Part shown: piece after piece, positions 12,747-47,755 of the stretch | Layout: every line of letters begins with the position of its first letter | Numbering within the stretch: the stretch's first letter is position 1 | DNA from: Pseudomonas sp. B21-028 | GTDB taxonomy: Bacteria > Pseudomonadota > Gammaproteobacteria > Pseudomonadales > Pseudomonadaceae | Length of the DNA stretch: 64,000 nt | Reading direction: 5' to 3' | NCBI RefSeq assembly: GCF_024749045.1 | Contig: NZ_CP087184.1 | Span: 3,596,001 to 3,660,000, forward strand | The notes under the pieces: model-generated | The model's input: the letters and a program-made list of their open reading frames with translations, nothing else | The model's database searches: none | What the model was told of the DNA's origin: nothing | Translations under genes and position numbers: made by a program

Positions 12747-13241
12747 TTACAGAGGCTTGGTCCAGAACAGCATGCGACCGTGGGCCGGGTCGAACATGCC
12801 AGCGGCGAAGCCGAACTTCGAATAGCTGGCCTGGGCCACGGCATTGCCTTCCAGCACCTCCAGGGTGATCTTGCAGCAACCGCGCTGACGCGCGATGTCC
12901 TCGACTTTCTGCAGCATCTTCTGGCTCAGGCCCAACCCGCGAAACGCCTTCATGACAGCAACGTCATGGATATTCACCAGCGGACGGCAGGCAAAGGTCG
13001 AAAAACCTTCGAAACAATTGACCAGCCCCGCCGGCTCGCCGTTGACGAATGCCAGCACGCTGAACGCGTGGGGGCGCTTGGCCAGTTCCTCCGGCAGGTG
13101 CAGCAAGACTTCGGCCGACAGCGACTGGCCACCACCCATGGGGTCTTCCGCATAGCCGTTGAGGACGTGACAGATCGCTTCGGCGTGAACCGGATTGGTA
13201 TAGCTGGCTTGCAGTACGAGAACGTCCTTGGCTTCTTCCAT
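12747..13241 (-). CDS. GNAT family N-acetyltransferase
   Basis: The 164-residue protein has the GNAT fold. The acetyl-CoA pyrophosphate loop motif is seen as FRGLGLSQKML, followed by the C-terminal LEVLEGNAVAQASYSKFGF typical of GCN5-related acetyltransferases. The substrate is not visible. The start at 13241 follows AAGGTC; the frame continues upstream, but those residues overlap the upstream ATPase gene in composition unlike a protein. It lies 68 bases downstream of the ZapE-like ATPase on the same strand and may be co-transcribed. Ordinary length; no anomalies. Confidence 0.85.
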   Translation of the reverse strand: MEEAKDVLVLQASYTNPVHAEAICHVLNGYAEDPMGGGQSLSAEVLLHLPEELAKRPHAFSVLAFVNGEPAGLVNCFEGFSTFACRPLVNIHDVAVMKAFRGLGLSQKMLQKVEDIARQRGCCKITLEVLEGNAVAQASYSKFGFAAGMFDPAHGRMLFWTKPL

Positions 13242-13309
13242 GACCTTGCATCTCTCTTCGCGGATACGGCGGGTAGGTACCGACAGAGGGGGCCGTCGGT
13301 GGGTAGAGG

Positions 13310-19233: not shown

Positions 19234-19240
19234 GCAACAA

Positions 19241-19335
19241 GCCTGTGGGAGCAAAGCTTGCTCGCGATAGCGGCGGACCAGCCGATACAGTTCGACTGAC
19301 TGGCCTACTCGCGAGCAAGCTTTGCTCCCACAGGC
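19241..19335. repeat. REPIN of family 1, GCAAAGCTTGCTCGC variant
   Basis: Arms CCTGTGGGAGCAAAGCTTGCTCGCG and the inverse ending TTTGCTCCCACAGG flank a spacer. The inner AAGCTT differs from the other copies and is matched on both arms, so arm changes are compensated. It lies between the ends of the convergent DUF883 and dpkA genes. Confidence 0.88.
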
Positions 19336-19379
19336 TTGAGGCTTGAAACCGACTGTTATCAGGCAGCAATTCCTTCGGA

Positions 19380-20654: not shown

Positions 20655-23600
20655 ATGCCCCGTGAGACCACGCCACTGCTATTCCCCGACGTCCTGGATG
20701 CCATCCGCCTGGACGAATTGAGCGCAACCGATGGGTTGACGCAAACCGACCTCGACTGGCTGCACCATGCAGCCCTGCCCAGCCACATGCTGCGCGCTGC
20801 GCAAACGCCATCAATGTCTGCCGAAACCGTTCTGCTCCAGGCCGAGGGCCAGGCGCCGATTCCGCTGGCCGGCTGCTTTACGCTGACTACCTTGCCAGAC
20901 GTCGACACCTCGAACTCCAAGCCGGCATTCCTCTACACGCCGCAGGGTGGGATCGAGAAATTCGACACCCCGCAGGCGCTGGAAACCCGGATTGATCAAA
21001 TGCTCGCAACCCCTGCCGAGCGTGACGGCCTGTTCCAGCTCCTGTCCATTTCCCAACGCGCCGAACTGAACACCGGCGCCATTATCAGCCAGGCCCGGCG
21101 GACCATAGACGGCGATGTGTTCAAGGCCCAGGTCGACTCCATCGAGCACGCTCAAAGCCTCAACGCGCTGACCATGGTCAATGAGCTGATCGAATTGCCC
21201 TCGCTGACCTCGATGCTGGACCAGGTATTGAAAGAAGTGCTGGCGAACTTTGACCCTCAACAGACCCGCGTCACAATCACCGCCGATGCAGGGCTGGGTG
21301 ATCCGACCATGGGCAAAGTGACCAACAACCTGTCACTGTCCGAAGCGGTCCTGGTGTACTTCCACCATCAGGGCCGGCCAGCACGACATGACGTCGATTT
21401 CATCCATCCGGACATCACGGCAGCGCCACACAATTCGCGGCAGTGGGAAAGCCTGCTGCGGGTCACCTCTGGGAACCTGATCCCCAAGCTCACCGATTGC
21501 ATCAATGCCTATTGGAGCGCCACCGGCCCGTTCCATATTTCACGCCGGGAGCTACTTTCGCAGGTTCTCAGCGATGCCCTGCGCGCAACCATCCTGGGTA
21601 AACGGGAGCAAAGGCAACTGACCGATGCGCAAAGCCAGGAGCTGCTCCGATTGTTCGGGCCATCCCGCCAGGACGAAACGCCTCTGTTCATCGAAACGAT
21701 TCGCCTCTGGGAATATGAGCCGCTCCATGTGGAGCTTGCCGGGTCGCTGATGATCAGTGGCAAAGAGCACTATCTCTACAGGCCCGGTCATGACCTGCAG
21801 AAAGTCGACCATTACCGCGGCTTCAAGGACGCGCTGCTGGCTACGCCGACAAGCCTGGCACGCAAGGAGGAACTCTACAGCCTGCTGAGCCTGGAAGAGC
21901 GCAACCGATTTCTGCGCCTTGATGAGCCACAGGTCTCAGGACGTTCAGTGACGCTGCCGCTATTCGAGTCCCTGGCGGATGCAATCATCGGTAAGCAGAT
22001 CAGCAACCTTCACTACGCCCTGGAGATGTCCCGCCAGGGCACCGTGAACATCCATGCCCTGGTCGACAAGGCACTGGATATCCGCTCCCTGATCAACAGG
22101 AACCTGCTGGAACATGGAACCGATGGGCACTGGGGCACCCTGCCAGCCTTCTATGGCGACTCGCGGCCGTCCAACTTCATGGCCGATCAACTGACGAGAA
22201 GGATCAAGAGCTATACCACCGTCGAAGAGGCTTTCAACACACTGTTCGCCCAACTGCCACTCTCCAACGAAATCTCACTGCACAGCCGACTCAGAGCCCT
22301 GCTGCCTGAACTCAGCAACGTTTTTTCCCTGGGAATACGGGCCGAAGCCGAACTCAGGAAACTCAACGGGACACTGCCGCCCGCCGCAGACGATCTCATC
22401 AACAGTGTGTTTGTCTACGATGGCGACTATCCGAATCGCGAGCAGCGCATTGGCCTCAAAGGCTTTCGGCCCGATGCCTATTCACTGAGGCTTGCCTGCA
22501 CCACGGAGGACAACACAACCTCCTTTCCCCTCGCCAATTGTTTTTTCCTGACCGAGCGCGGAGGACTGGACACGCCCTACTCAGGCCTGGGAGTCCTCTG
22601 GACGCCAACCGACGGCTTGCAGGTATTTCCCTCCGTCGACGTCGCGACGAAACAATTGAACCGAAACCTGCTCGACTCCCGCAAACGCTTTGGCCTGCTC
22701 GCCAACCTGCCCAGTGCCCAACGCAAGCCTCACGGGCGTTACCAGCTCGAGACCTTTGAGTTGATTGAAGACAACGTGTTGCTCGATCGGATGAATTCGT
22801 TCATCAGGTTGTTCGAGACCGAACACGGCTACTTGAAGACCTTGAGAACCCGGGACTGGCAACTGACCGGGACGGCACTGGTCAGGAGCCTTGAAGCATT
22901 GCTGAACAAGGGCGCCCCTACCAACCTGGCCCGTGCCAAACGCATCGCCCAGGCGGACTGGTGGCAACAGAAGCTGCCTGCCTGGCTCGGCATGGCTTCT
23001 CTCGAGGAGCAGCGCCTGCATATCGATCTGCTTGAGCAATATCGAAACAGCGTGATCGATGGCAAGGACTACCTGGACGGTATCGAGCCCTTGCAGACCT
23101 ATACCCGTAAAAAACTGAAAGCGCTGCTGGATGCGCGCTTTACCGAAAAGGACCTGGACCCGACGACCATCCAGATCACACCGAACCTCGCGCTGGCGGG
23201 GCCTCCCAGCTCCCTGGACGCGTTCGCCCTGAACCCTATCGATGTCACCCGGAAAACCGGATTCAAGGTGTCGTCGACGTCCAGACGCAAGCTGCCTGAC
23301 AGCCTGAACGAGGCAGCGGTCAAACAGTTGCTGCTGTCATTGGATATTTCCACCTCGTATAAACGACATGTGCTGGACAAGCTGTCTGGTACGACAGAGG
23401 ACGTTCAACAGAGAAAACAGCGCTTCGGCCAACAGCTACCCTGGCAACTGTTGCAATACGCTCACGCACGGTGCCTACAACAGTACCTCTCCCCTTCGGC
23501 CTTCGACTTGATTCGCCAGGTGCTGGACATGCCGGACGCCATTGCCCGTCAGGCGGTAAAAGGCGCCAGCGCGCTGATCCGTCCCCTGGAGCTGATCAAG

Positions 23601-25469
23601 ACCGATGGTGCTGCGGCGATCAAGGCCCTAGGGCTTTACCTGATCGGGTCAAGCACCGATGCGAAAGCGCCCCACGTTCTGTACGCCCCCTACCATACAG
23701 GCCCGGGTTTCACCGAGTTCAAGGACGAAGCGAGTGTCGTGGACGCCTTCAACAGGCCAGGACCGCTACAAGACTTGTTAATCAGTCGCCTGCCTGCCAA
23801 CCAGCGAAGCACGTTCAAAAATCTGTTCATCTCCACCCTCGGGCAGCGATCGGAAATTACCCTCGCTTCGAAACCGGTCCGAACGAACATCCTCGATACA
23901 TTGTTCGATGACAATACCCATTTGTTAGCGGACCTGCTCACCACTCAAACAGACAGGCAACGTCAGTTCGACTGGGAAGCCGTGCGGCATCTGCTCAGCG
24001 TCGGTGCCAGGTTCGTGGGCAGGCAACTGCCGGGCAAACTGAATTTTTTCGAAACACTGTGGGAAAGCTATCAAGACTTCAAATCTTCTTCCGAAGCGTT
24101 GCAGCAACATGACTGGAAAACCGGCCTGCATGACTTCATTGCCGGTGCCGCGGAAATGGTGTCGCTCGGCTTCATGAACAGGGAGGATACGTTCGGGCTG
24201 CTCGACCCCGTCGGCGCTGCCTCGCAAAACACACCCGCGGCTCCGATCCATTGGAAGGACATCGCTTCCACAGCCCCTATCCGCACCAACCTCCAAGCCT
24301 TCGAAGCCACGGGCGTAAGCCTCCAGGATCTGCACAAGAACCCCGCTGACGGCACCTACAAGGCCGCAGGCTCCGGCAAGCTGTATGTCAGCGTTGTTGG
24401 CAAAGTCTTTCAAGTGGCGAAGGTCAATCAGGTCTGGCGCGTGGTCCATGACAAGGGAGAGGGACCGATACTGGAAAGATTGCCTGGGAGCCAGGAGTGG
24501 ACCATTGACCCACAACGACAGACCATTCGTTACGGCAAGGTGATGTCGACCCTTGCGAACAGGTACAGCGACTACAAGGCCGCAGATACGCTGAATATCG
24601 AAGCCAGAGGCATGGCTGAGATACGCAGGAAATACCCCCACCATGCAAACGTCATTGTGCAGGCGCTGGAGACAGCCAGGTATTATTCCCTCAATGCGCT
24701 CCATAATCTCGATCAGGCCAGGCAACGGGTTTCATCGGGTTCCCGGCTGGATACTTACCTCAAGGTCTTTTTCGGCGTCGCACAGGTCGATGCCAGCTTG
24801 ATCGCCAGGATACAAGCCACGGTTGCTCCGATATGCCAGGTGCTGGCCGACCCATCCTGGGAAACGCTGAACGAAAAACGCATCGTGATCGGCAACCTCA
24901 AAAGTGCCGACGATACGGCGACTGCATTCGTGCTCGAACCCAATGCAGCCGGAAAAATCTACCTCACGCAATTTTTCTTCAACGCAGGACTGGACGCGTA
25001 CAAGGCCATCGTTCCCGAGTCCTTCAATGTCGACGCTCATGCCCAGGGAGCGACCCTCATCCACGAATTGACCCATCAGTTGCTCGACACACATGACATC
25101 GCTTACCTGGACGCGTTATTGCCATTTCCCGACCTGATTTCGCAAATCACTCATTACGGACGAACCCGGTATGAAGCGCAGAAGGACCAGCAACTCAATG
25201 GGCTCTCGCTGACCACGCCACGTTCAAGGTTGTTCTTGGGGTGGGATACCACAGCCAGCACGTTCAAGAGCCTGGAGTTGCTTCCCGAGTTCAAGGCTAC
25301 CGCCAGGGAAATCCTCAAAGTGACCGGCGCCAGAACCATGAACGAGGCGCGTGATGTCTTTCTGAATCCCAGCTCGGCGGACCAGCGCATCGACGTCATC
25401 CTTCGAAACGCCGACTCGCTGACCCTGCTCATCTGTGAGTTGGGACGCCAGCTCGACTCGCCCTCCTGA
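20655..25469 (+). CDS. giant DUF6543/dermonecrotic-toxin-like protein with HExxH metallopeptidase motif
   Basis: The 1604-residue protein has no signal peptide or strong membrane segment. Long helical repeats dominate, with two similar units (residues about 60-200 and 620-760) of the form ADCFxLT...GxxVLYTP...ThxxLexRI...R..L, seen as the PAFLYTPQGGIEKF and GVLWTPTDGLQVF segments, and again near LYAPYHTGPGFTEF. This suits the toxin-like DUF6543 family common in Pseudomonas. Near the C-terminus is HELTH (His1470, Glu1471, His1474) followed by DTHDIAY, close to the aspzincin (M35) pattern HExxH..GTxD, so a zinc peptidase is likely. GAGAAGCAACG precedes the ATG. No immunity, VgrG, Hcp or PAAR gene is adjacent. 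The delivery route and target are unknown. Confidence 0.72.
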   Translation: MPRETTPLLFPDVLDAIRLDELSATDGLTQTDLDWLHHAALPSHMLRAAQTPSMSAETVLLQAEGQAPIPLAGCFTLTTLPDVDTSNSKPAFLYTPQGGIEKFDTPQALETRIDQMLATPAERDGLFQLLSISQRAELNTGAIISQARRTIDGDVFKAQVDSIEHAQSLNALTMVNELIELPSLTSMLDQVLKEVLANFDPQQTRVTITADAGLGDPTMGKVTNNLSLSEAVLVYFHHQGRPARHDVDFIHPDITAAPHNSRQWESLLRVTSGNLIPKLTDCINAYWSATGPFHISRRELLSQVLSDALRATILGKREQRQLTDAQSQELLRLFGPSRQDETPLFIETIRLWEYEPLHVELAGSLMISGKEHYLYRPGHDLQKVDHYRGFKDALLATPTSLARKEELYSLLSLEERNRFLRLDEPQVSGRSVTLPLFESLADAIIGKQISNLHYALEMSRQGTVNIHALVDKALDIRSLINRNLLEHGTDGHWGTLPAFYGDSRPSNFMADQLTRRIKSYTTVEEAFNTLFAQLPLSNEISLHSRLRALLPELSNVFSLGIRAEAELRKLNGTLPPAADDLINSVFVYDGDYPNREQRIGLKGFRPDAYSLRLACTTEDNTTSFPLANCFFLTERGGLDTPYSGLGVLWTPTDGLQVFPSVDVATKQLNRNLLDSRKRFGLLANLPSAQRKPHGRYQLETFELIEDNVLLDRMNSFIRLFETEHGYLKTLRTRDWQLTGTALVRSLEALLNKGAPTNLARAKRIAQADWWQQKLPAWLGMASLEEQRLHIDLLEQYRNSVIDGKDYLDGIEPLQTYTRKKLKALLDARFTEKDLDPTTIQITPNLALAGPPSSLDAFALNPIDVTRKTGFKVSSTSRRKLPDSLNEAAVKQLLLSLDISTSYKRHVLDKLSGTTEDVQQRKQRFGQQLPWQLLQYAHARCLQQYLSPSAFDLIRQVLDMPDAIARQAVKGASALIRPLELIKTDGAAAIKALGLYLIGSSTDAKAPHVLYAPYHTGPGFTEFKDEASVVDAFNRPGPLQDLLISRLPANQRSTFKNLFISTLGQRSEITLASKPVRTNILDTLFDDNTHLLADLLTTQTDRQRQFDWEAVRHLLSVGARFVGRQLPGKLNFFETLWESYQDFKSSSEALQQHDWKTGLHDFIAGAAEMVSLGFMNREDTFGLLDPVGAASQNTPAAPIHWKDIASTAPIRTNLQAFEATGVSLQDLHKNPADGTYKAAGSGKLYVSVVGKVFQVAKVNQVWRVVHDKGEGPILERLPGSQEWTIDPQRQTIRYGKVMSTLANRYSDYKAADTLNIEARGMAEIRRKYPHHANVIVQALETARYYSLNALHNLDQARQRVSSGSRLDTYLKVFFGVAQVDASLIARIQATVAPICQVLADPSWETLNEKRIVIGNLKSADDTATAFVLEPNAAGKIYLTQFFFNAGLDAYKAIVPESFNVDAHAQGATLIHELTHQLLDTHDIAYLDALLPFPDLISQITHYGRTRYEAQKDQQLNGLSLTTPRSRLFLGWDTTASTFKSLELLPEFKATAREILKVTGARTMNEARDVFLNPSSADQRIDVILRNADSLTLLICELGRQLDSPS

Positions 25470-25599
25470 ACATGCTCGCCCCAGCCCGAACGCAAAAAAA
25501 ATCGCCTGTACCCGAACAATCACAAGGGTTTAACGACATCCCGGCGAATTTTTCACATCACGGCCCGCATGATTGGCCGTTCCTCTTGAAGGAGCACGC

Positions 25600-25668
25600 G
25601 TGACTATTTCAGATCAGGCTGGTAAGGACCTCTTGCATGCAAAACGCGCAACTGCCCATGGAGAATAA
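25600..25668 (+). CDS. possible 22-codon leader peptide overlapping the Fur-like gene
   Basis: A GTG preceded by AAGGAGCACGC opens 22 codons ending in TAA. The frame runs over the start of the next gene (ATG at 25637) in another phase. The strong ribosome site and tight overlap suggest translational coupling or a leader, but so short a frame may be chance. Confidence 0.3.
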   Translation: MTISDQAGKDLLHAKRATAHGE

Positions 25669-26023
25669 GCCGAGGCCGGACGGCGTCTCGATGACAACCC
25701 CGAATAACCTGCTCGCCAACGCGACGGAACGAGGCAGTAACGAACACATCAGGCGCCTGCTCAAGAGCTTCGGACTCAGGACCAGCCTGATTCGCCTCAA
25801 GATCATCGACGTATTGCTCACGGCTACGGTGGAGAACCATTGCCTGGGCGTGCGAGGCGTGCACAGTCAGCTGTTGGGGCTGGACATTCCCTTGTCCTTT
25901 CTCAGTGTTCGCGAGGTATTGAAGCGCCTGTGCAGCGAAGGGGTGGTGACACTCAATCCCGACAAGAGCTACAGCCTGCACCCCAGGGCCATGGCCGTGC
26001 TCGCCGCCGGGGAATACCCTTAG
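25637..26023 (+). CDS. Fur-like winged-helix protein lacking the metal-binding domain
   Basis: The 128-residue product has a winged-helix pattern like the Fur DNA-binding domain: LLKSFGLRTSLIRLKIIDVL, then GVRGVHSQLLGLDIPLSFLSVREVLKRLCSEGVV, then SYSLHP. Fur proteins continue into a His/Cys-rich dimerisation and metal-binding half; here the protein ends after the wing. Similar genes are sometimes annotated as Fe2+/Zn2+ uptake regulation proteins. AAGGACCTCTTGC precedes the ATG at 25637. It converges on the next minus-strand gene, overlapping by four bases at the stops. It probably binds DNA without metal sensing; targets are unknown. Confidence 0.65.
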   Translation: MQNAQLPMENKPRPDGVSMTTPNNLLANATERGSNEHIRRLLKSFGLRTSLIRLKIIDVLLTATVENHCLGVRGVHSQLLGLDIPLSFLSVREVLKRLCSEGVVTLNPDKSYSLHPRAMAVLAAGEYP

Positions 26024-26208
26024 GGCTTGACCTTGCGCCGCATCACACCGTTGATCACCACCACGATCACCGCCACGGCAATGGCGATGTATTGAAACAG
26101 CTGCTCGCTGATCATGCCTTTGTTCTGCATCCACGACAGCCCCAGCATGATCGCCAGGACCACGAGGACAATCAGAATCGAGTATTTCAAACGTTGCGAA
26201 TGAGTCAT
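26020..26208 (-). CDS. small two-helix membrane protein (62 aa)
   Basis: The 62-residue protein starts MTHSQRLKYS and has two hydrophobic segments (about 10-27 and 39-56), with positive charges at both ends (RRKVKP). This gives both termini inside under the positive-inside rule. AGGAATTGGCA precedes the ATG at 26208. The longer upstream frame lacks protein-like composition. It overlaps the stop of the Fur-like gene by four bases. Function unknown; the gene is supported by ribosome site and composition. Confidence 0.65.
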   Translation of the reverse strand: MTHSQRLKYSILIVLVVLAIMLGLSWMQNKGMISEQLFQYIAIAVAVIVVVINGVMRRKVKP

Positions 26209-26360
26209 TGCCAATTCCTGAATGTATCCGTTCTGTATCCGTTCGCTTGCCAACTGCCTACCCGGTTCCAGGGACAAGCGGCAGCCAATGGGGGTCCCCA
26301 TGGTACAACCGAAGGAGCGCTGCCGCGCAACCATGGTTTTCAATCATGAGGATTCTATTT

Positions 26361-26498
26361 ATGTTTCGTCACATGTCACTGCTACTGCCGCTGTTAGCGA
26401 TCCTGCCGCTGAGCGGTTGTCTTTTTTCCCCCCCTGGCCACGGTCATGGGGACGGATCGGGACATCCTGAGGGGCCTGGTTTCGACCAGCACCGCTAG
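26361..26498 (+). CDS. tiny histidine/glycine-rich lipoprotein (45 aa)
   Basis: The 45-residue product has a full lipoprotein signal with lipobox LSGC (Cys about 20), then only about 25 residues, very rich in Gly and His (GHGHGDGSGHPEGPG). GAGGATTCTATTT precedes the ATG. It should be lipid-anchored in the envelope; the His-rich tail could bind metal ions (inference). It lies 150 bases downstream of the divergent two-helix membrane gene. Such small lipoproteins are common and poorly studied. Confidence 0.6.
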   Translation: MFRHMSLLLPLLAILPLSGCLFSPPGHGHGDGSGHPEGPGFDQHR

Positions 26499-26749
26499 GA
26501 CTTTCTCGTTGCGCCGCGGGCGAAGCGTCTGCAGCGCGCCCATCAACGCTACGATTTCTCCTACTTATCAACCTGTAATTTACTGACTTCCTTCGGAAAT
26601 AAATGTCCGCATCTGCTGGCATTTTTCTTACGCCTGCCAAACATATTTCCGTCGTCAACATCGGAGAACTCTGTCTTTCAAGCCTTATGCCCCCCAACGT
26701 ACTCTCGAATAAGAGGCGCTTACCTCTCCACTCGAAATAAACGTTGGGA
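26499..26749. promoter_or_regulatory. upstream region of the lux-like cluster with an inverted repeat
   Basis: About 250 AT-richer bases between the tiny lipoprotein and the MFS gene, with no supported gene. CGGAAATAAATGT at 26594-26606 and ACATATTTCCG at 26641-26651 form an imperfect inverted repeat with a loop of about 34 bases. It could be an operator or part of a leader. A -35/-10 pair could not be fixed with confidence. Confidence 0.45.
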
Positions 26750-27976
26750 ATGCCAAACTTGCGGACCACTTTCTCGCCTGAACGATTGACAGGTTTTTGC
26801 CTGGCTATCGCACTCTTCGAATTATTAACGTACATGGCCAGTGACTTGATCATGCCCGCCATGCTCGCCGTCACCGAAGAGCTCGGGGCCACTGCGGATC
26901 AGATTCCCTACGCATTCAATCTCTACCTGCTGGGTGGCGTCCTGCTGCCCTGGTTGATCGGGCCATTGTCGGATCGTCATGGACGTCGGCCGTTCATGCT
27001 CGCCGGTTGCGCCGGGTTCGTGCTGGCTTGCGCGGCGGCCACCCAGGTCAGCCAGATGCAGGGGTTCAATGGCCTTCGCCTTGTCCAGGGCATGGGCCTG
27101 GGCTTCGTGATTGCGGTCAGCTATCCCGCCATACAGGACATGTTCAACGAGTCGGATGCCGTGAAAATCATGGCACTGCTGGGGAACCTGGCCCTCCTGT
27201 CGCCCCTGCTGGGCCCCTTGCTGGGAGGGTTGCTTCTGCAATGGCTGTCCTGGCGCGAACTGTTTCTGCTGCTGGCCGGCCTCGGGGCATTGAGCTGGTT
27301 GGCTCTCTGGGGATTCATGCCACGCCACTCGAGGCCGGGCAGCCAACAGCCGCCACCTGCTCCTGTCGAACTGCGTGCACTGATCAAGCGCTATGGCGCC
27401 TTGCTCGGCCACCCCGGATTCATGGCGGCCAGCGTCGCGCTGGGGCTGATGAGCCTGCCATTGATCGCCTGGATCGGCCTGTCGCCCCTGCTGCTGATAC
27501 AGGGACAGGGCGTTTCTCCACTGGTGTATGGGCTCTGGCAGATCCCGGTGTTCGCCGCCGTGATCCTCGGCAATCTTCTGCTCAATGCCCTGGTGGAACG
27601 GATCGGCGTACGCGGCGTGCTCCGTTGCAGCCTATGGCCTCTGTGCGCCGGCCTGCTCGCCTTGGTCATCTTCAGCCGATTCCCCCTTCCCCTGCCTGCG
27701 CTGGTCGGCGGCCTTTCGCTGTATGCCCTCGGCCTCGGCCTGGGTAATGCGGCTCTGTATCGACTGGCGTTGTTTGCCAGCGACGACAGCAAGGGGTTGG
27801 TCTCGGCCATGGTCGGGATGATCTCCATCGCCGTGATGACCGCTGCCGGTTCGCTGCTGGCGTTGCTGGGTGCCGGCACCAGCCTGGAATCCTTTGCCTT
27901 GATGGCCGGTATCGCCGGGCTCAGTTGTCCTGTTGCGTTGTGCCTGTTCATGTCGCGACCGGTCGCTCCCGTTTGA
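26750..27976 (+). CDS. MFS exporter (DHA1, MdfA/Bcr-like)
   Basis: The 408-residue protein has about 12 membrane helices. MFS motif A is seen as GPLSDRHGRRPFML between helices 2 and 3, and the sequence near ELLTYMASDLIMPAML resembles drug:H+ antiporters of the MdfA/Bcr type, with an acidic residue in helix 1 (FELLTYMASDLIMP). The ATG at 26750 is preferred to a TTG two codons earlier. It is the first gene of a same-strand run: LuxE-type synthetase 29 bases later, then reductase-ligase, ligase and acetyltransferase. The position suggests it exports the product of that cluster or protects the cell from it. Substrate unknown. Confidence 0.85.
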   Translation: MPNLRTTFSPERLTGFCLAIALFELLTYMASDLIMPAMLAVTEELGATADQIPYAFNLYLLGGVLLPWLIGPLSDRHGRRPFMLAGCAGFVLACAAATQVSQMQGFNGLRLVQGMGLGFVIAVSYPAIQDMFNESDAVKIMALLGNLALLSPLLGPLLGGLLLQWLSWRELFLLLAGLGALSWLALWGFMPRHSRPGSQQPPPAPVELRALIKRYGALLGHPGFMAASVALGLMSLPLIAWIGLSPLLLIQGQGVSPLVYGLWQIPVFAAVILGNLLLNALVERIGVRGVLRCSLWPLCAGLLALVIFSRFPLPLPALVGGLSLYALGLGLGNAALYRLALFASDDSKGLVSAMVGMISIAVMTAAGSLLALLGAGTSLESFALMAGIAGLSCPVALCLFMSRPVAPV

Positions 27977-28005
27977 ATTTTTCCGCTCCCGAGGAAAGTT
28001 AACCA

Positions 28006-29133
28006 ATGATTCATTTTCCCCACGCCGATGCGCTGTGTGCATTGCCCCAGCCCTATAGCCCCGAATCGATACCCTCCGGGCTGTTCGATCGGGCCATGGC
28101 CGAGATCAGCCTGTTCCATAGCCATCACACCCCCGGCTACGAAGACTGGCTCAACGCCAACGGACTCGCCGTCGAGGACCTGGAACACCTGACGGACTGG
28201 TCGCGCCTGCCGCCCATCTACGCCAACTACTTCAAACAACGCTTGTTGATCAGTCCTACGGGCGAGGAGGCCCTGGAACTCACTTCATCCGGTACCGGCG
28301 GCCAGAAAAGCCGCATGCGTTATGACGAACGCAGCATGACGGCGGCCCAGGGGATGGTGGCGCGCATCTTCGATCATTACGGCTGGTCCACGCCGGACGC
28401 GCCCTGCAACTACCTGTTGCTCAGCCATGAACCCGAACCGGACAATCGCCTCGGTACGGCCTATACCGATCAGTTCCTGTGTCGCTTCGCCCCGGTCAAC
28501 AGCCTGATCTATGCCTTGCGACACACCGGCAACGGTCATGAGTTCGACGTTTTCGGCGTCATCCGCGCCCTGCAGACGTTCGCTGAGCAAGGCCTGCCGG
28601 TGAGGATCTTCGGCTTTCCGGCGCTGCTCTGGCACGTACTTGAGCGCATGCGCGAGAGCGGCGTCCCGAATCTGACGCTCGCGCCTGATTCCCTGGTGTT
28701 CCTGGGCGGCGGCTGGAAGAAACAGGCTGACCGGGAAATACCCCGCCACCAAGTCTATGAGCGCATCACCCGGCAACTGGGCATCGAAGCCCATCGCTGC
28801 CGCGACGGCTACGGTGCAGTCGAGCACGCCGTGCCCTACATCGAATGTGCTGAGCACCGGTTTCATGTACCGGTCTATTCGAAAGTCTTCATCCGTCACC
28901 CCTCGAACTTCGACGTGCAGCCGCTCGGCGAGGCCGGATTGCTGTCATTCGTTTCGCCCTATATCTCTTCCAGCCCCGCCCATGCCGTGGTGATGAGCGA
29001 CCTGGCGACCCTGCACCCCGCCGACTGTGAATGCGGTTCGAGCACCCAATGGTTCGAACTGCATGGTCGCGCCGGCACCAGCGCCAGCCGAAGCTGCGCC
29101 ATGGCCGCCGCGGAACTGATCAAGGAGCAATGA
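28006..29133 (+). CDS. LuxE-type acyl-protein synthetase
   Basis: The 375-residue protein matches the LuxE family in length and motifs: an AMP-binding loop TSSGTGGQKS (93-102), LVFLGGGWKK in the middle and RDGYGAVEHAVPYIEC after it. LuxE of luminous bacteria activates a fatty acid as acyl-AMP and passes it to a Cys close to its own C-terminus, then to LuxC. Here Cys364 lies 11 residues from the end, in the expected place. GAGGAAAGTTAACC precedes the ATG. The LuxC-type gene begins one base after this stop, so the two are coupled. The acyl chain is unknown, and no luciferase genes are present. Confidence 0.85.
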   Translation: MIHFPHADALCALPQPYSPESIPSGLFDRAMAEISLFHSHHTPGYEDWLNANGLAVEDLEHLTDWSRLPPIYANYFKQRLLISPTGEEALELTSSGTGGQKSRMRYDERSMTAAQGMVARIFDHYGWSTPDAPCNYLLLSHEPEPDNRLGTAYTDQFLCRFAPVNSLIYALRHTGNGHEFDVFGVIRALQTFAEQGLPVRIFGFPALLWHVLERMRESGVPNLTLAPDSLVFLGGGWKKQADREIPRHQVYERITRQLGIEAHRCRDGYGAVEHAVPYIECAEHRFHVPVYSKVFIRHPSNFDVQPLGEAGLLSFVSPYISSSPAHAVVMSDLATLHPADCECGSSTQWFELHGRAGTSASRSCAMAAAELIKEQ

Positions 29134-29134
29134 T

Positions 29135-31546
29135 ATGTACCTCATCAACGGCCAGCTGCACGCGAGCCTGACACTCGACCAGGCCCTCGAACGCCTGCAA
29201 GCGCAACTGCCCGCCCTCCTGGCGTCGTCGCCCCCCAGCGACAGCGTGCTCGACTGCGCCGAGGCGTTCGCCCAAGGACTGCGCGCGGGACGGGAAGCGT
29301 TCCTCGACGAGGACCAACGCCAGGCGCTGATCGCATTCTGCGGGCGCGAGCAATTGAGCTTGAAACTCGCGCGGGAGCTGGGAGCGGATCCTCGCTCGCT
29401 GCGGCGCATCGACTACAGCGACGGCCCCTTTGAAAGCTGGCAGCCCTTGGGCTTGGTGGTGCACGTCACGCCGAGCAATGCGCCCTTGCTGGCGTTCTGC
29501 GCGGCCCTGGAAAGCCTGCTGGCCGGCAATATCAACTGGATACGCCCGAGCACACAGGATGGCGCATTGACAGCGCGCCTGTTGGCGGCTTTTCTGGCAT
29601 GCGACAGCAGTGGCCGGCTCTGCGATTATCTGGCGGTGTTGCCGGTTCCCCACCATGACAGCCAGCGCCTTTTCGCCCTGGCACAAGGTGTCAGCGCCTG
29701 GGGTGGCGAGACGGCACTCAAGGCCCTGCGCGAGCAGGTCCCGAGCGGGTGTCGCTGGATCGACTGGGGGCATCGCGTCAGCTTCGCCTACCTCTCGCCT
29801 CACGCGGCCACCCCCCAGGCAATGGATGACCTGGTGGATGAAATCTGCCGCCTCAACCAGCAAGCCTGCTCCAGCCCGCAATGGCTGCTGGTCGACACTG
29901 ACGAACCCGTCGTGATGGAGCAAGTGGGTAGCGCCCTGGCCGCCGCATTCGAGCGAAGGGCCGGACGCTGGCCCGCCCTGGCGCTCACCACTGCCGAAGC
30001 CTGTGAAATCACCACCCGAACGGCACTCACCCGGCTGGACCACAGCTTCGCGGGACATGCAGGCCAGGTCTGGACCGGTGAGGGTTGGCGCATCCTCTGG
30101 GAACATCATCGCGACCTGTCGCCGTCGCCACTGTTTCGCACCCTGCTGTTGCGGCCCGTCCCCCAAGCACGGTTGACCGAGACACTGTTGCCCTGGCGGA
30201 ACGTCTTGCAGAGCTGCGCACTCATCTGTGAACCGGAACAGGCGCCAGGGCTGACACGTCGCCTGATAGCCGCCGGCGTCTCCCGCCTCTCGACAACCCG
30301 TGAGATTCAGCAGGGCTATGACGGCGAGCCCCATGACGGCGTCTATGCACTGCAACGCTTGAGCAGGCGGGTGTCGGTCGGCCTTGAACCCCACGTCGCG
30401 AGTCATCGTGTCACCCTGGACGCCTCTCCGGCGCCGATATCGATGACTCCTTCAACACCGATAATGGGCAAGGCCGATTTCATGGCCCTCCCCATCGCAG
30501 CCCAGGCACAACTGTTCTTCCGTTCCGGTGGCAGCAGTGGCGCCCCCGTGCTGTCGTGCTACAGCTATCGCGATTTCGACCGCCACATGCGTGCCGCCGC
30601 CGACGGACTGCGTGCAGCCGGCCTGGACCCCGCACACGACCGGGTGATGAACCTGTTCTACGGGGGCAACCTCTACGGCGGTTTTTTCAGTTTCTCGAAA
30701 ATACTCGAACAGATGAACGTCGTGCATTACCCCATGGGCGCGCCGACAGACAAGGCGTTCGACGAAATCGCCCGGATGATCGTCGCCCATGGCATCAATA
30801 CGTTGATCGGCATGCCGAGCACACTGCACCGTCTGTTTTCCAGCCAGAGGAGCCTCCTTCAGGACTACGGCGGTGTGTGCAAAATCCTTTTGGGCGGCGA
30901 GCACCTGGGACAAGCCACTCGACAGTTGTTCCAGGCTTGCGGCGTCACGCGCATTCGCTCGGCCCTGTACGGCAGCGTGGACGCAGGCCCTCTCGGCCAT
31001 GCCTGCGCCGCCAGCGAGGATGGCGTGTTCCATCTGATGGACGACATTCAATACCTGGAAGTCATCGACCTGGATCAGGATACGCCGGTCGCGCCGGGGG
31101 AAACCGGGCGCTTGCTGTTCACTTCCCGACAGCGCCAGGCGCAACCTCTGCAGCGCTACGACGTCGGCGATTGCGGACGCTGGCTGCCGGGCCCCTGCCC
31201 TTGTGGCCTGGAATCACCCAGGTTCGAGCTGCGCCAGCGCCACGGCCGCGTGCTGCGCGTTGCCACGGAATCCATCAATAGCCAGGAGCTGGCCGAACTG
31301 GCCCAGGTGGCCATTCAAATCGTCCTCGATCACCACAGCAGCGGCTGCGAGCGCATGCTGATCCGCGCCGATGGCGACGCCGAAACGGTACGGCGCAGGG
31401 TCCTGGCACTGCAACCGCTGTGCGCATCCGTCGATGCCGCACTGCTGGTACTGGAAGTCCAACCCTGTACGCCCGAATGTTTCGAACATAACAGACACAG
31501 CGGCAAAGTCCCGCTGGTGATTGATGACAGAAGCCCTGGCTTATAG
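29135..31546 (+). CDS. LuxC-type acyl reductase fused to an adenylate-forming ligase
   Basis: 803 residues in two parts. Residues 1-430 resemble LuxC, the NADPH-dependent acyl-CoA/acyl-enzyme reductase: LVVHVTPSNAPLL in the nucleotide-binding fold and the nucleophile Cys245 in NQQACSSPQ. Residues about 445-803 form an AMP-forming ligase of the PaaK/LuxE-related type: loop FFRSGGSSGAPV (462-472), LLGGEHLG, YGSVDAGPLG and YDVGDCGRW. LuxC proteins usually lack this second domain, so the fusion is unusual. It may activate an acid and reduce it to an aldehyde in one polypeptide. Its ribosome site AAGGAG lies inside the end of luxE. A separate ligase similar to the second half follows 49 bases later. 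Confidence 0.85.
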   Translation: MYLINGQLHASLTLDQALERLQAQLPALLASSPPSDSVLDCAEAFAQGLRAGREAFLDEDQRQALIAFCGREQLSLKLARELGADPRSLRRIDYSDGPFESWQPLGLVVHVTPSNAPLLAFCAALESLLAGNINWIRPSTQDGALTARLLAAFLACDSSGRLCDYLAVLPVPHHDSQRLFALAQGVSAWGGETALKALREQVPSGCRWIDWGHRVSFAYLSPHAATPQAMDDLVDEICRLNQQACSSPQWLLVDTDEPVVMEQVGSALAAAFERRAGRWPALALTTAEACEITTRTALTRLDHSFAGHAGQVWTGEGWRILWEHHRDLSPSPLFRTLLLRPVPQARLTETLLPWRNVLQSCALICEPEQAPGLTRRLIAAGVSRLSTTREIQQGYDGEPHDGVYALQRLSRRVSVGLEPHVASHRVTLDASPAPISMTPSTPIMGKADFMALPIAAQAQLFFRSGGSSGAPVLSCYSYRDFDRHMRAAADGLRAAGLDPAHDRVMNLFYGGNLYGGFFSFSKILEQMNVVHYPMGAPTDKAFDEIARMIVAHGINTLIGMPSTLHRLFSSQRSLLQDYGGVCKILLGGEHLGQATRQLFQACGVTRIRSALYGSVDAGPLGHACAASEDGVFHLMDDIQYLEVIDLDQDTPVAPGETGRLLFTSRQRQAQPLQRYDVGDCGRWLPGPCPCGLESPRFELRQRHGRVLRVATESINSQELAELAQVAIQIVLDHHSSGCERMLIRADGDAETVRRRVLALQPLCASVDAALLVLEVQPCTPECFEHNRHSGKVPLVIDDRSPGL

Positions 31547-31595
31547 CCCTTCGCCTGCGCCTTAACCAGCGAACTTCATAGCCCGAGAGTCCCTG

Positions 31596-32870
31596 ATGAG
31601 CACTTCCTTTCCATTCGAACAATGGCTCGCCCACGTGCGCCTGCATTCAAAGTATTACCAGAAACACTGGAAGCATTTACCCGCGCAAGGCTGTGCGTTC
31701 GAGGACCTGCCGATTGTCGACGCCAACGATTACTGGAGCGGCAGCCATGACCTGGACACCTGGGATGTACTGACCGGTCCCGTCACGGACGCACTGATCT
31801 ATAAAACCGGTGGCACGACCAGCCAGGGAAAGCTGTCGGTGTACACCCATGAGGAATGGCAGCGAATGCTCGATGGCTTCGCAGGCGGCCTGTCCACCCA
31901 GCTTGATACAGGCGATCGAATTGCCAATCTGTTCTTCTCGGGGGACCTGTATGCGAGTTTCCTGTTCATCCACGGTGCCCTTTGCCAGGTTGACCTGCCG
32001 ATTACCGAGTTCCCCTTCACCGGGTCGATCGATCCGGATGTGTTGGCCGATGCCGTCACTGCACACCGCATCAATGTGCTGGCGGGTGTACCGGCCCATC
32101 TGCTGGCCATTGCCAGTCATCTGGACCGGCAGGGCCGAACGCTGTCCGGTATCACCACCGTGCTGTTCGGTGGGGAGCACCTGTTCGAGCGTCAACTTCC
32201 AATGTTGAGACAAGTCTTCCCCCAGGCACGCTTCGCGTCCATCGGTTATGCCAGCGTGGACGCCGGACTGGTCGGGGCCAGCACCCCTGATTGCTTGCCC
32301 GGCGAGCACCGCGTATTCGACGAACAGACGCGGCTGGAGATCATCGATGAAGTGAGCGGCGAGGTTATCGAAGCCTGTGACCGCCCAGGCAACCTGGTGG
32401 TGACCAACTTCACCCGGACCCTGATGCCGATGGTGCGTTATCCCGTGGGGGACCGGGCCTGTTGGCGAGAGCCTGTCGGCACTCCACGACGCAAGTTCGA
32501 ACTGGCGGGACGTAGCGCGCAGAGCCAGCGGGTACGGGTCGGCGTGGTTTCGCTGTTTCCGCAGCGGATCAGCGAGATCATTCGGGACATTGGCGGCGAA
32601 CTCCAATGGCAACTGATCATCGAGCCCGTCGAAAACAATGACCGTGTGGTGCTCAAATGGGTACCCGATCATCCGTCGAGCCTCTGCGGGTCATTGTCCC
32701 AGGCGCTGGAACTCGCTTTGATCCAGCAGCATCCGGGCATCGATCAACTCGTTCTGCATGTCCAAGCCTGCCAGGCGCAGGATCTGGAGCGCCACCCACG
32801 CTCCGGCAAACACTTGCAGGTCGTCGATCGCCGGGGCTATGGCCCGATGGCAGCGAGGCACGTCAGATGA
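31596..32870 (+). CDS. PaaK-like adenylate-forming ligase
   Basis: The 424-residue protein has the AMP-binding loop KTGGTTSQGK (70-79), FGGEHLFERQ, YASVDAGLVG and VRYPVGDRACW. These correspond one by one to motifs in the second half of the preceding 803-residue protein, so the two ligases are probably an ancient duplication. The enzyme should make an acyl-AMP and pass the acyl group to a thiol. The start follows a weak GAGAG. The next gene overlaps by four bases (ATGA). Substrate unknown; CoA ligase or carrier-protein ligase are both possible. Confidence 0.8.
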   Translation: MSTSFPFEQWLAHVRLHSKYYQKHWKHLPAQGCAFEDLPIVDANDYWSGSHDLDTWDVLTGPVTDALIYKTGGTTSQGKLSVYTHEEWQRMLDGFAGGLSTQLDTGDRIANLFFSGDLYASFLFIHGALCQVDLPITEFPFTGSIDPDVLADAVTAHRINVLAGVPAHLLAIASHLDRQGRTLSGITTVLFGGEHLFERQLPMLRQVFPQARFASIGYASVDAGLVGASTPDCLPGEHRVFDEQTRLEIIDEVSGEVIEACDRPGNLVVTNFTRTLMPMVRYPVGDRACWREPVGTPRRKFELAGRSAQSQRVRVGVVSLFPQRISEIIRDIGGELQWQLIIEPVENNDRVVLKWVPDHPSSLCGSLSQALELALIQQHPGIDQLVLHVQACQAQDLERHPRSGKHLQVVDRRGYGPMAARHVR

Positions 32871-33823
32871 GTGCCCTGGTCATCAGGCCGTTCAGGCCCG
32901 CCGACGCCATTGGAATCAGCGAACTGTTCCGCCGGGTATACGGGGATCACTATGTTTCGCCAGACGTCTACGTGCCCCACATGATTTGCCAGCACCACCA
33001 GCATCGACACTGGTTTTCCATGGTCGCCGTGCTGGAGGAGCGGGTGGTTGGCCACGCCGCGTTGTGCCGACCTGCGGCGAACCGGGAGGATGCCGAGCTG
33101 GCGCTGATGGCAGTGGACCCGGCGCTGCAAGGCAGTCAGATTGCTACCCGCCTGGGCCGGCAGCTACTGGATCGCTGCAAGGATCTCGGCCTCGTCAGGC
33201 TGTCCATCAAACAGGTCACCAGCCACCTCTATAGCCAACGACTGGCACAACGACTCGGTTTCCATGACATGGGACTGATGCCCGACCATGTGCCCTCGCC
33301 ATTCTCCGCGACCCAAACCGAGGCCCAAACCGAGACCATAGTGGTCGGCTGTCAGGTGATGGGCGACCATCGCCGGCCGTTGCCCGACGTGCAATGGCCT
33401 GCCCCGTGCCAATGGCTGATGGCGCCCCTGGCTGCACAATTCGGCACCACCTTCGACGACGCACCTGCCCCGATGCAGCCGCTGCAGATCAGCTCATTAC
33501 CCGGGCGCATCGACGTCATCGCCGGACACATGAGCCGGCACCTGGCCAGACAACTGCAACGCTTGCCGGCCCACTGGTCGATCGCGGTACGACTCGGACT
33601 GCGCCGCCAATTTCCCGAGGACTACCGACGGTTGATGACTGCCGGATTCATTTTTACCGGCATGGTGCCCGCCGAAGGCGAGCTGAACTGGCAGGCGCTG
33701 TTTCACCGTGGCGCGCTGGCTCGCCACCTGGACTTGCATGCGGAGCCGATGCAACGACTGCACGATGAGTTGCAGTTCCATACGCGGAACTGGAGAGGCA
33801 GGCAGTCCAGTTCGGCAGCGTGA
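32867..33823 (+). CDS. GNAT acetyltransferase, probably tandem
   Basis: The 318-residue protein begins [20 protein letters not shown], a standard GNAT first strand and helix, and has the acetyl-CoA loop region [20 protein letters not shown] and [13 protein letters not shown] at about 85-135. The second half (about 150-318) has similar strand and helix alternation and may be a degenerate second GNAT domain. It overlaps the upstream ligase by four bases, so it is part of the cluster. It could N- or O-acylate the product or use the acyl-thioester made by the ligases; this is inference from position. Confidence 0.78.
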
Positions 33824-33947
33824 CAGGGGCAACGTTGGCGACGAACGGTCCCCTCTGTCAAGCATGGAACATTCAAGCGCAATGGCGAGGAGCCGATACA
33901 GACATGTCTACCGTCCCAAAAGATGCCTTCGAGCAAGGAACTGTCCA

Positions 33948-35942
33948 ATGCCCTCATTCCGCACCATTCAGGCTCGCTACACGCTGTTCCTGATCTTATT
34001 CATCCTGGTGTTGTCCTTCCTGACCGTCGTGGGCATCAGCTATCTGGTCGCGCCCAAGCTGCGCCAGACCGAAGAACAAGTCGCGCTCAATCGCATCGGC
34101 GAAGTCGCGGAGCAGATCCAGGGCGAGCTGAACAAAGTGCAGGCCCAGCAACGCAGCATTACCCAGACCATTCCGTTGCTCGACAGCGATGCCATCGACA
34201 AGGTACTCCCCGGCCTGGTGGATCAATATGGCGAACCGAAAGTCTTCGGTGGCGGGATCTGGCCGCTGCCCAACCAGCGAGCCGAAGGACGAAACAAATT
34301 CAGCACGTTCTGGCATCGCGACGGCTCCGGCAAACTGGTAGTCAACACGTTCTGGAACAGCGACGCCGCGCCGAACTATTACGAGCAGCCCTGGCACAAG
34401 GGCGGCATGGCCACCCCGCCCGGCAAATGCGCCTGGGCCGCCGCCTATAAAGATGACGCCAGCGCCGAACCGCGCACCAACTGTGCCATGGCCATCCAGA
34501 AAAACGGTGTGCCTTACGGCGTCTCCACCATCGACGTGACCCTGGGCTTCTTCAATGACCTGGTGGCGCGCAAGGAAGCCGACCTGAACGCCGAAATGCT
34601 GATTGTCGAAGGCGACGGCAAGATCATCAGCAACAGCTCGCGCATCAGCGGTCCGATCGTCCTCAAGAACATCAGCGAACTGGCGGCCACTTTGCCGTTT
34701 GCCGCTCAGGTCAAGGCGGGCCTGGCTCAGCGCGACCAGCCGTTGCAGCGGGTCGAATTCGACAACAAGGGCGAAGCCAGCACGTTCTTCATGCGCCCCA
34801 TCGAAGGCACGCCCTGGTTCCTCGCCACCGCCTTGCCAACCCGCCTGATCACCGCTCAGCGCGATGATGTACTGAATACGCTCAGCCTGCTGCAGATCCC
34901 GATGGTCATCCTGCTGGTGCTGATGCAGTTGTACGCAATCCGCCAACTGACCGGCCGCATGAAGGTACTCAAGGGCAACATCGATGCGCTGTCCACCGGC
35001 GATGCCGACCTGACCCGACGCATCACCGTCCGCGCCGAGGACGAACTGGGAGCGATTGGTCATTCGGTCAACCGCTTCATCGTCTACCTGCAAGACATGA
35101 TCAGTGAGGTTACCCAGGCCACCGGCGCCATGGCGTCGAGCCTGGACAACCTGCAGCGGACCTCGGCCCATACCAGCGAGATCCTGATGCGCCACGCCTC
35201 GGAAACCGACCAGACCGTGACCGCCATTACCCAGATGAGCTCGACGGCCGAGAGCGTGGCCCAGAACGCCGCCGAAACGGCTGCGTTCACCCAACGCGCC
35301 AACGAACACGCCGATCGCTCTCGTGTCGTGGTGGGCGAAGCCTCCAACAGCGTGGTGGCGTTGATCGATGAAGTCGCCGGCGCCACCCGCAAGGTCGAGA
35401 GCATGCAGCAGGACGCGCAACGCATCACCGAGATTCTCGGCGTGATCGGTGCCATTGCCGGACAGACCAACCTGCTGGCACTCAACGCCGCCATCGAAGC
35501 CGCCCGGGCCGGCGAACAAGGCCGCGGGTTTGCAGTAGTGGCCGACGAGGTCCGTGCCCTCGCCGCCCGCACCCAGGCCAGCACCTCGGAAATCAACGAA
35601 ATGCTGACCCGCCTGACCCAAGGCGTGAGCTCGTCGGTTTTGGCGATGGAAAATACCCAGGCCAGTTGCCAGTCGGCTGCCGACGCGACCTCCCGGGTCA
35701 ACAGCGGCCTGGATGAAATGGCCGGCTCCGTCGGCCAGATCAACAGCCTGAGCACCCAGATCGCCACTGCCGCCGAACAACAGAGCGCCGTGACCGAAGA
35801 AATCAACCGCAGCATGGTGCAGATCCGCCATATGGTGGAGGAACTGGTAGAAGGCGGACTGGCCAGCGAAAACAACACCCGACAACTGCTGGAAGCCAAC
35901 AGTCGGGTGAATGCGATCATGGGACGGTTCAAGCTTCGCTGA
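33948..35942 (+). CDS. methyl-accepting chemotaxis protein (Cache-type sensor)
   Basis: The 664-residue receptor has a membrane helix near 8-30, a long periplasmic region (about 31-290) of Cache type, a second membrane helix ([18 protein letters not shown]), a HAMP linker ([26 protein letters not shown]) and a cytoplasmic signalling domain with hairpin [20 protein letters not shown]. It should sense a ligand in the periplasm and control CheA. The ATG at 33948 follows AAGGA and starts the membrane helix; the longer upstream frame is rejected. It lies 124 bases after the acetyltransferase and is probably a separate unit. Ligand unknown. Confidence 0.93.
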
Positions 35943-35950
35943 GAACGGTT

Positions 35951-35983
35951 GCTCCCATGCAGCCCTGAAGGGCTCATGGGAGC
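35951..35983 (+). terminator. strong stem-loop after the chemoreceptor gene
   Basis: GCTCCCATG, one bulged C and AGCCCT pair with AGGGCT and CATGGGAGC around a two-base loop, starting nine bases after the stop. The 15-pair stem has no T-run after it, so it may stabilise the mRNA end or work with Rho. The adjoining REPIN starts six bases later. Confidence 0.55.
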
Positions 35984-35988
35984 ACTCC

Positions 35989-36080
35989 CCTGTGGGAGCG
36001 AGCCTGCTCGCGATGGCGGTGGATCAGCTTGCATTGATGTCGAATGTTAAACCGCTATCGCGAGCAGGCTCGCTCCCACA
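35989..36080. repeat. REPIN of family 1
   Basis: Two inverted arms CCTGTGGGAGCGAGCCTGCTCGC and GCGAGCAGGCTCGCTCCCACA flank a spacer with TGGCGGTGGATCAG, as in the copies at 1573 and 38892. Confidence 0.9.
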
Positions 36081-36229
36081 CTGGATCTTCAGTGGGCGAG
36101 CTGGCGAGCGGTGGCGACTATTCATTCCATCCACCTGACAATTCTGTCATCCGCCCCTCAGCACCCCGTCAGCTCGCAACCGCTACTCTGTTATCCTCCC
36201 GCCAACCTGCTCCACACGAGACCGCTTCC

Positions 36230-36676
36230 ATGGCCAATCCCCTGCACCTGCTCGCCCTGAGCGCCCTGTTCGTCACCACCCTGGCCCAGGCGGCCACACC
36301 GACCACCATCGATGTGCACCGCGATGCCAACTGCGGCTGCTGCAAGAAATGGATTGCTCATCTGCAAGAGAACGGCTTCAAGGTCAACGACCATGTCGAA
36401 ACCGATATGAGTTCAGTCAAGCAACGCCTGGGCGTGGCGCCCAACATGCGTTCCTGCCATACCGCCGAGATCAACGGCAAATTCGTCGAGGGCCACGTCC
36501 CTGCCGATCAGGTACGGGCGTTGAGCCAACGGGACGACTTGCTCGGCGTGGCCGCACCCGGCATGCCCATGGGGTCGCCCGGCATGGAAATGGACGGCAT
36601 GAGCGACGCCTACCAGGTGATCGGCCTGAAGAAAGACGGAACGCAGACCGTGGTGGCGGATTACCCGGCCCACTGA
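36230..36676 (+). CDS. DUF411 metal-binding periplasmic protein
   Basis: The 148-residue protein has a signal peptide (about 1-20, ending AQA) and the DUF411 pattern: NCGCCKKW near residue 35, SVKQRLGVAPNMRSCHTAEI, FVEGHVPADQV. The three Cys in NCGCC plus the SCH sequence can bind copper or another metal. Some relatives sit next to copper-resistance genes; no such gene is beside this one. It should be periplasmic. Met/Gly-rich residues near GMPMGSPGMEMDGM might add copper ligands (inference). No strong ribosome site is visible. Confidence 0.85.
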   Translation: MANPLHLLALSALFVTTLAQAATPTTIDVHRDANCGCCKKWIAHLQENGFKVNDHVETDMSSVKQRLGVAPNMRSCHTAEINGKFVEGHVPADQVRALSQRDDLLGVAAPGMPMGSPGMEMDGMSDAYQVIGLKKDGTQTVVADYPAH

Positions 36677-36809
36677 CGGAGATCGCCGCGCCGCGTCAGT
36701 TGCATTTTTCCTGGGTCGGTTGAACATTCCGGCCTGTCGATTGCCTGTGGTTAATGTCGCCATAACCGGGCCGCTCCAGGATCGGCCGGCTGCCACAAGG
36801 AGATCGACC

Positions 36810-38824: not shown

Positions 38825-38984
38825 ATCACGAGCAGGCTCGCTCCCACATGGGCTCTCCTGTGATAGCAAGATCCGAAGCCACTGCAGATCTCCTGTGGGA
38901 GCGAGCCTGCTCGCGATAGCGGTGGATCAGTCGATGAAGATCTTGACTGTGCTGACGCTATCGCGAGCAGGCTCGCTCCCACAA
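38825..38984. repeat. family 1 REP arm plus a full REPIN
   Basis: A single arm CACGAGCAGGCTCGCTCCCACA (38825-38849) is followed after 42 bases by a two-arm REPIN (38892-38984). The sequence between the two matches nothing else I can name. It lies after the dehydrogenase gene. Confidence 0.88.
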
Positions 38985-39494
38985 AAAACAGAATTTCCTT
39001 CATCGGAAGAGCTATCAAAACGCCTCTATTTCGCGCGCACTCCAATGGTGCATCCCGTCACCCGGTCGCGCACGTCGATGAAACCACTCCTCCCCCTTAC
39101 CGCATTTTTATTTCAGATAAGTGCACTTCGTCGGCGCGTATCTCCCGCCGTCATGTAAGACATTGCCGACAAAAAACGTGATTGTCCGACAAATCGACGA
39201 AGCGCACCGCACCGCTCTAGGTTCTGTCCTAGACTGCCGATCCCGGAGGAAAACCGACCGGTCATTTCGACGAAAAAAAGTCGAAACTTTTCGCAACGGC
39301 GACGGGTCAGGTTAGAGGTAGGGCAACAGCGGCTGGTGCAGTCCTTGCACAGTCCCATTACCTGATTCGCTTAGCCGCATTGGGCAGCGCTTCGCTCTCC
39401 TTGCGTAGCGCTTGTGCGCCTGGCCGCAGGATTCGGCCAATGAAACAACAGCTCTGGCGCGTGCCGGAAACAGATCGAGATACAGGAGATACTT
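38985..39494. promoter_or_regulatory. long leader/upstream region of the glgA operon with two hairpins
   Basis: About 510 bases with no supported gene. Two clear small palindromes are CTAGG/CCTAG (39217-39232) and TTTCGAC/GTCGAAA (39265-39286, loop of A's). They lie before the glgA start and could be operators or leader hairpins. AT-rich runs around 39105-39180 are the most likely promoter area. The length suggests regulation worth testing. Confidence 0.45.
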
Positions 39495-41066: not shown

Positions 41067-41074
41067 GGTGATCG

Positions 41075-47735: not shown

Positions 47736-47755
47736 GTCATGTCAGGAGCATTGCG

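Follow-up and report, generated by a model that had tools for sequence, protein, structure and literature searches.

Leupeptin (Ac-Leu-Leu-argininal) is a small peptide aldehyde that inhibits proteases and is said, in the 2020 work of Li et al., to be built by discrete ligases together with accessory enzymes. Two later papers both credit the pathway to Li et al. 2020 (PMC8283571, PMC11480411). According to the first, the transporter and leupABCD lie together at one site in Klebsiella michiganensis; in strain CAV1374 leupABCD occupies nt 315,353-321,183 (5,831 nt) with the transporter adjacent, and the primers leupA_f and leupB_r yield a 1,235-bp PCR product (PMC8283571). The second assigns leupeptin (m/z 427.30), a lysine analogue of it and pyrazinones derived from them to the Klebsiella oxytoca operon, a pyrazinone to the Photorhabdus luminescens operon and a homoarginine form to the Photorhabdus and Xenorhabdus operons; derived pyrazinones are thus attributed to operons of Klebsiella, Photorhabdus and Xenorhabdus, and the Klebsiella operon is described as silent in typical laboratory culture (PMC11480411). 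The present study concerns a five-gene block at positions 26750-33823 of a 64,000-nucleotide stretch of the Pseudomonas sp. B21-028 genome (the window; G000:C1:3596001-3660000). Our analyses indicate that this block is very probably a leupeptin-type operon, leupABCD plus a major facilitator superfamily (MFS) exporter, and thus a route free of nonribosomal peptide synthetases whose product would be a short, N-acetylated peptide aldehyde (leupeptin or an analogue).

All five genes are intact open reading frames (ORFs) on the plus strand, and their Pfam families in gene order, MFS_1, LuxE, LuxC plus AMP-binding, AMP-binding and Acetyltransf_1, agree with those named in the original prediction, made from the sequence of this locus before any database search. 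The operon's transporter gene (26750-27976) encodes an exporter of the MdfA/Bcr-CflA type (PF07690, E = 7.9e-37); its first possible start is a TTG at 26744, and its best NCBIfam model, MdfA-family efflux, scores under its cut-off. It is followed by the leupA homologue (28006-29133; PF04443, E = 1e-25), a LuxE-like acyl-adenylating protein whose C-terminal Cys364 is conserved, and by the leupB homologue (29135-31546), in which an N-terminal LuxC reductase domain (PF05893, E = 6.4e-101) is joined to a C-terminal PaaK-like ligase (PF00501, E = 2.1e-08). The leupC homologue (31596-32870; PF00501, E = 2.5e-10) is a stand-alone PaaK-like AMP-forming ligase, and the leupD homologue (32867-33823; PF00583, E = 7.5e-12) is a GNAT N-acyltransferase to which a further C-terminal half is added. 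For both ligase domains the nearest NCBIfam model is the DVU_1553-type AMP ligase, again under its cut-off. The coordinates bear out the tight spacing noted originally: a single base separates the luxE-like gene from the luxC-ligase gene, and the stop codon of the ligase gene shares an ATGA at 32867-32870 with the GNAT start codon. The longest GNAT ORF, opening at an ATG at 32657, would overlap the ligase gene by 214 bases, and translation is unlikely to begin there.

Relatives of the block in K. michiganensis, Photorhabdus and Xenorhabdus, together with the work of Li et al. 2020, suggested leupeptin, an idea that we then put to the test using the published primers. Both match locus L078 (K. 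michiganensis DSM 25444) with 0 mismatches, leupA_f at 10053-10073 (plus strand) within the LuxE-like gene (9992-11128) and leupB_r at 11268-11287 (minus strand) within the LuxC-like gene (11130-13538), and the predicted product, end to end, is 1,235 bp, equal to the size given in PMC8283571. From the start of the LuxE match at 10001 (the longest ORF runs from 9992) to the GNAT stop at 15828 the L078 block measures 5,828 nt, against the 5,831 nt given there, and an MFS gene lies upstream of it. Over the aligned residues, the window proteins are 63% (LeupA, 367 residues), 50% (LeupB, 803), 50% (LeupC, 414), 39% (LeupD, 288) and 49% (MFS, 376) identical to those of L078; compared with P. luminescens and X. 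bovienii, the values are 62-63% for LeupA, 51-52% for LeupB, 47% for LeupC and 39-40% for LeupD. The window thus carries what marks a leup operon: four adjacent genes in order, homology protein by protein, an adjoining transporter and the conserved LuxE and LuxC cysteines. The original prediction, which could place the cluster in no known pathway and was to yield to a characterised one with a known product, is superseded on this point by gene-for-gene homology to leupABCD and its transporter.

The same arrangement recurs widely. A full-length LuxC-ligase is present in 15 of 95 genomes, that of B21-028 included, and the other 14 all carry these five genes in an identical order. Scanning genome contigs with the LuxE alignment returned 173 relatives, of which the best 80 loci were kept; 7 of these are cut by contig ends, leaving 73 long enough to judge, and because some genomes are present twice (e.g. 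G015 and L108, whose contigs have the same length of 190,978), locus counts do not equal counts of independent genomes. The four-gene core occurs in order at all 14 same-genus loci and at 72 of the 73 judged loci among these best 80. The genes had been predicted to form one unit, and the search for their order in other genomes that was proposed alongside bears this out; a gene order arising by chance or confined to one genome is rejected. The exception, L095 (Rosenbergiella), has a shortened block, with a LuxC ORF of 481 aa, a 160-aa ligase fragment and then the GNAT gene, possibly a decaying operon. The MFS gene lies upstream of the core at 40 of the 72 loci and is not found there at 32 (13 Photorhabdus, 17 Xenorhabdus, one P. 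entomophila and one Pantoea); at L100 (uncultured Cedecea, 9319-9943) it appears as two short ORFs and may be broken. Carriers among the best 80 of 173 include Chromobacterium, Rugamonas, Iodobacter, Chitinimonas, Parachitinimonas, Burkholderia multivorans, many Pseudomonas, Photorhabdus, Xenorhabdus, Klebsiella michiganensis, Mixta, Pantoea, Erwinia, Cedecea and Rosenbergiella. The operon spans several families of Beta- and Gammaproteobacteria. In a gene-by-gene comparison of 14 loci, the outer flanks mostly differed between genera, the P. entomophila/Pantoea pair excepted, and the block therefore looks self-contained.

Within Pseudomonas, 34 of 149 genomes (B21-028 included) have a LuxE-like match, 30 at at least 68% identity, 3 at 58-61% and 1 distant at 26%; a leupA-type gene is thus present in 33 of the 149, and the whole operon was checked in B21-028 and 14 of them. 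A 128-aa gene (25637-26023, plus strand; helix-turn-helix-like by eye only, with no Pfam match) marks the site. It lies 1.8-2.1 kb upstream of luxE in all 30 Pseudomonas genomes whose LuxE is at least 68% identical and is not upstream in the 3 with LuxE at 58-61%. As it is matched in 126 of the 149 Pseudomonas genomes, it is mostly present without the operon, and it probably stands outside the pathway. In the relative G526 (L119), an operon-sized stretch corresponding to 26498-33918 (ends as set by the blastn blocks) is missing and replaced by about 115 bp, while the flanking blocks at 25526-26497 and 33919-36679 are collinear at 78% and 86% identity; in G525 (L122), positions 21935-36025 are collinear throughout at 90%. 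In Pseudomonas, then, the operon is an optional block at one site. In a maximum-likelihood tree of LeupB (37 rows: the window and 36 of 37 chosen loci, L095 being too short and left out), P. entomophila stands apart from the fluorescens-group copies and pairs with a copy from Pantoea, the two falling among sequences of Enterobacterales and Parachitinimonas. Transfer of the operon between lineages is probable, as is its gain or loss as a unit in Pseudomonas.

The chemistry to be expected follows from the two Lux-like parts. LeupA aligns with LuxE of the solved LuxC-LuxE complex (PDB 7xc6), Cys364 included, and Cys245 of the LeupB LuxC domain aligns with a cysteine of LuxC in the same structure; Cys364 is kept in 95 of 95 alignment rows and Cys245 in 90 of 90 (of 94 loci, the length filters were passed by 94 for LuxE, 89 for LuxC-ligase, 90 for the ligase and 89 for the GNAT). 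Acyl-AMP formation, transfer to LuxE and reduction of the thioester to an aldehyde by the LuxC domain are therefore the expected reactions, and the earlier view that the LuxE/LuxC pair points to an aldehyde holds, with acetylation and export plausible. We infer the following sequence of steps and substrates. LeupD would acetylate the N-terminal amino acid, and LeupC and the ligase domain of LeupB would adenylate carboxyl groups and make the amide bonds. LeupA would then adenylate the C-terminal carboxyl and bind it to Cys364 in thioester linkage; the LeupB LuxC domain would carry out an NAD(P)H-dependent reduction of this thioester, and the MFS protein would export the resulting aldehyde, which may inhibit proteases outside the cell. 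In luminous bacteria, LuxD is the acyltransferase that frees fatty acids; the absence of LuxD beside the operon would be explained if the ligases supply the free peptide acid. The AlphaFold model of the GNAT protein is good (mean pLDDT 90.0, pTM 0.86) and matches GNAT structures across approximately residues 2-172, with amino-acid-like and small-molecule acetyltransferases and also protein N-terminal acetyltransferases among the best; these matches to a predicted structure fit a role for LeupD in N-acetylation.

The substrate class is where the original prediction, which had called the cluster a fatty-acid reductase, does not stand. An enzyme system making a long-chain aldehyde or a derivative of one would account for the LuxE and LuxC Pfam families, each with its cysteine, but the scores fall far short of the NCBIfam Lux equivalog cut-offs (61.7 of 550 bits for LuxE, 50.5 of 750 for LuxC), LuxE-LuxC is joined by the ligases and the GNAT in 72 of the 73 judged loci, and the homologous block is the leupeptin operon. 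We consider such a function very improbable, and a fatty-aldehyde or bioluminescence-type role was rejected on the Lux scores. In keeping with the earlier statement that luciferase genes are missing, Pfam found neither luxA nor luxB in the operon or the neighbours scanned, the remaining genome not having been searched for luciferase; luxD (PF02273) had no match in the B21-028 genome, but also none in 14 control genomes. The LuxE family is single-copy in this genome, and the closest named database LuxE proteins are those of P. mediterranea (95%) and Pseudomonas sp. B21-056 (93%). Databases label these proteins "long-chain-fatty-acyl-CoA reductase," "acyl-protein synthase" and the like, which is misleading as to function. 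The GriC/GriD proteins of the grixazone pathway are likewise LuxC/LuxE-like, and PaaK-like ligases often use aryl acids, which together could suggest an aromatic carboxylic acid reductase giving an aryl aldehyde. However, no aryl-acid biosynthesis gene is among the five and the homologous operon yields a peptide aldehyde; this analogy was rejected, and we regard it as extremely improbable.

A closer contender keeps the pathway type and changes the product to a peptide aldehyde other than leupeptin, with other residues, another N-acyl group or another length, and so overlaps the "analogue" branch of our own explanation. It is proposed for the fluorescens-group operon because the ligases and LeupD have diverged: identity to the characterised copies is 39% for LeupD and about 47-52% for the ligase proteins, and the fluorescens-group copies form a clade of their own. 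Residues also vary by genus among the characterised operons, with a lysine analogue in Klebsiella and a homoarginine derivative in Photorhabdus and Xenorhabdus (PMC11480411). On the other hand, LeupA, which would handle the C-terminal residue, is 62-63% identical to characterised copies and highly conserved across genera, and the gene order is unaltered. We regard a different peptide aldehyde as a real possibility, though not the one we favour.

Several observations weigh against the assignment to a leupeptin-type operon or are weak. LeupD has just 39% identity to its Klebsiella counterpart, and in the LeupB tree the fluorescens-group copies form one group of 12 (support 100/100) split from the characterised ones at the midpoint root, so that phylogeny does not bracket leupeptin itself. 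Among the papers listed by our searches on leupeptin with Pseudomonas, we recognised none on a Pseudomonas leup operon or on a fluorescens-group product, which does not mean that there is none. Further points concern LeupD, distribution and regulation. Pfam recognises only the N-terminal half of LeupD, and none of four pieces tried from the C-terminal half matched an acetyltransferase; this half, in which strands and helices alternate in the AlphaFold model, has no structure match of its own. The earlier description as a "tandem GNAT" is less secure. A clean empty site was seen in only L119 of the four operon-lacking relatives (L118-L121): L118 also is without the chemoreceptor gene, the gap in L120 holds about 1.5 kb of other sequence, and between the matching blocks of L121 there is neither operon nor chemoreceptor gene. 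In a class-wide sample of 369 genomes, only 5 besides B21-028 gave a LuxE-like match, all distant (19-111 bits vs 733 for its own), so that close copies are patchy. A promoter scan of 26350-34100 returned 1 promoter-like site, on the minus strand, compared with a mean of 1.8 in shuffles, and identified no promoter.

The leupeptin-type reading replaces the orphan annotation "LuxE/LuxC without luciferase" with a concrete, testable product class. The pathway type is already known. A more novel reading, which we hold to be less likely than not, is that the fluorescens-group operons make a peptide-aldehyde protease inhibitor chemically distinct from leupeptin and that the operon, gained and lost as a unit at one chromosomal site, gives soil and plant pseudomonads a common antiprotease trait that has gone unrecognised.

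Other features of the neighbourhood were also recorded. Just upstream of the operon, 20655-25469 encodes a protein of 1604 aa that contains a ToxA_N domain (dermonecrotic toxin N-terminal), and at least 11 of the 14 same-genus loci have related ORFs on that side of the operon. A FecR-family and/or penicillin-amidase-family gene stands between the ToxA_N-type and 128-aa genes in 13 of the 14 operon-bearing same-genus loci, the fourteenth, L023, ending early; the families of this pair were tested in L017 only (1715-5159), and the window has neither gene. In 4 of the 14 same-genus loci (L017, L018, L019 and L021) the GNAT gene is directly followed by an extra LysR regulator and aldo/keto reductase (13608-15648 in L017, the one locus in which the families were tested), which may have an accessory role or protect the cell from an aldehyde product. 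Repeats of the REP-like kind, each about 100 bases long, occur at 19238-19339, 35986-36097 and 38885-38986, with several copies in L118 too, and a glycogen/trehalose-type gene run (starch synthase, alpha-amylase family, 4-alpha-glucanotransferase, isoamylase-like) extends over 39495-50513. A GtrII match of a small neighbouring ORF, weak and under its cut-off, was set aside.

Comparison with the described systems places the block most naturally beside leupABCD. With the Lux fatty-acid reductase complex (LuxC, LuxD and LuxE) it shares the expected LuxE adenylation and acyl transfer, the expected LuxC thioester reduction and both cysteines; in contrast to that complex, its LuxC carries a ligase fusion, another ligase and a GNAT are present besides, and no luxAB or luxD adjoins. 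Among the papers listed by literature searches on LuxC/LuxE, we recognised none as describing the present cluster. The leup operons of Photorhabdus and Xenorhabdus have the same four-gene core and order, with LeupA 62-63% identical, but are without a homologue of the window MFS within 2.5 kb upstream of leupA (30 loci long enough). Although the Pseudomonas copy lies at another genomic site than leupABCD of K. michiganensis and K. oxytoca, and falls in its own clade, the two share all five genes and their order, homology over their full length at 49-63% identity (39% for the GNAT) and the same cysteines, and leupABCD at the Klebsiella locus compared here, L078, has the 5.83-kb length published for that operon (PMC8283571).

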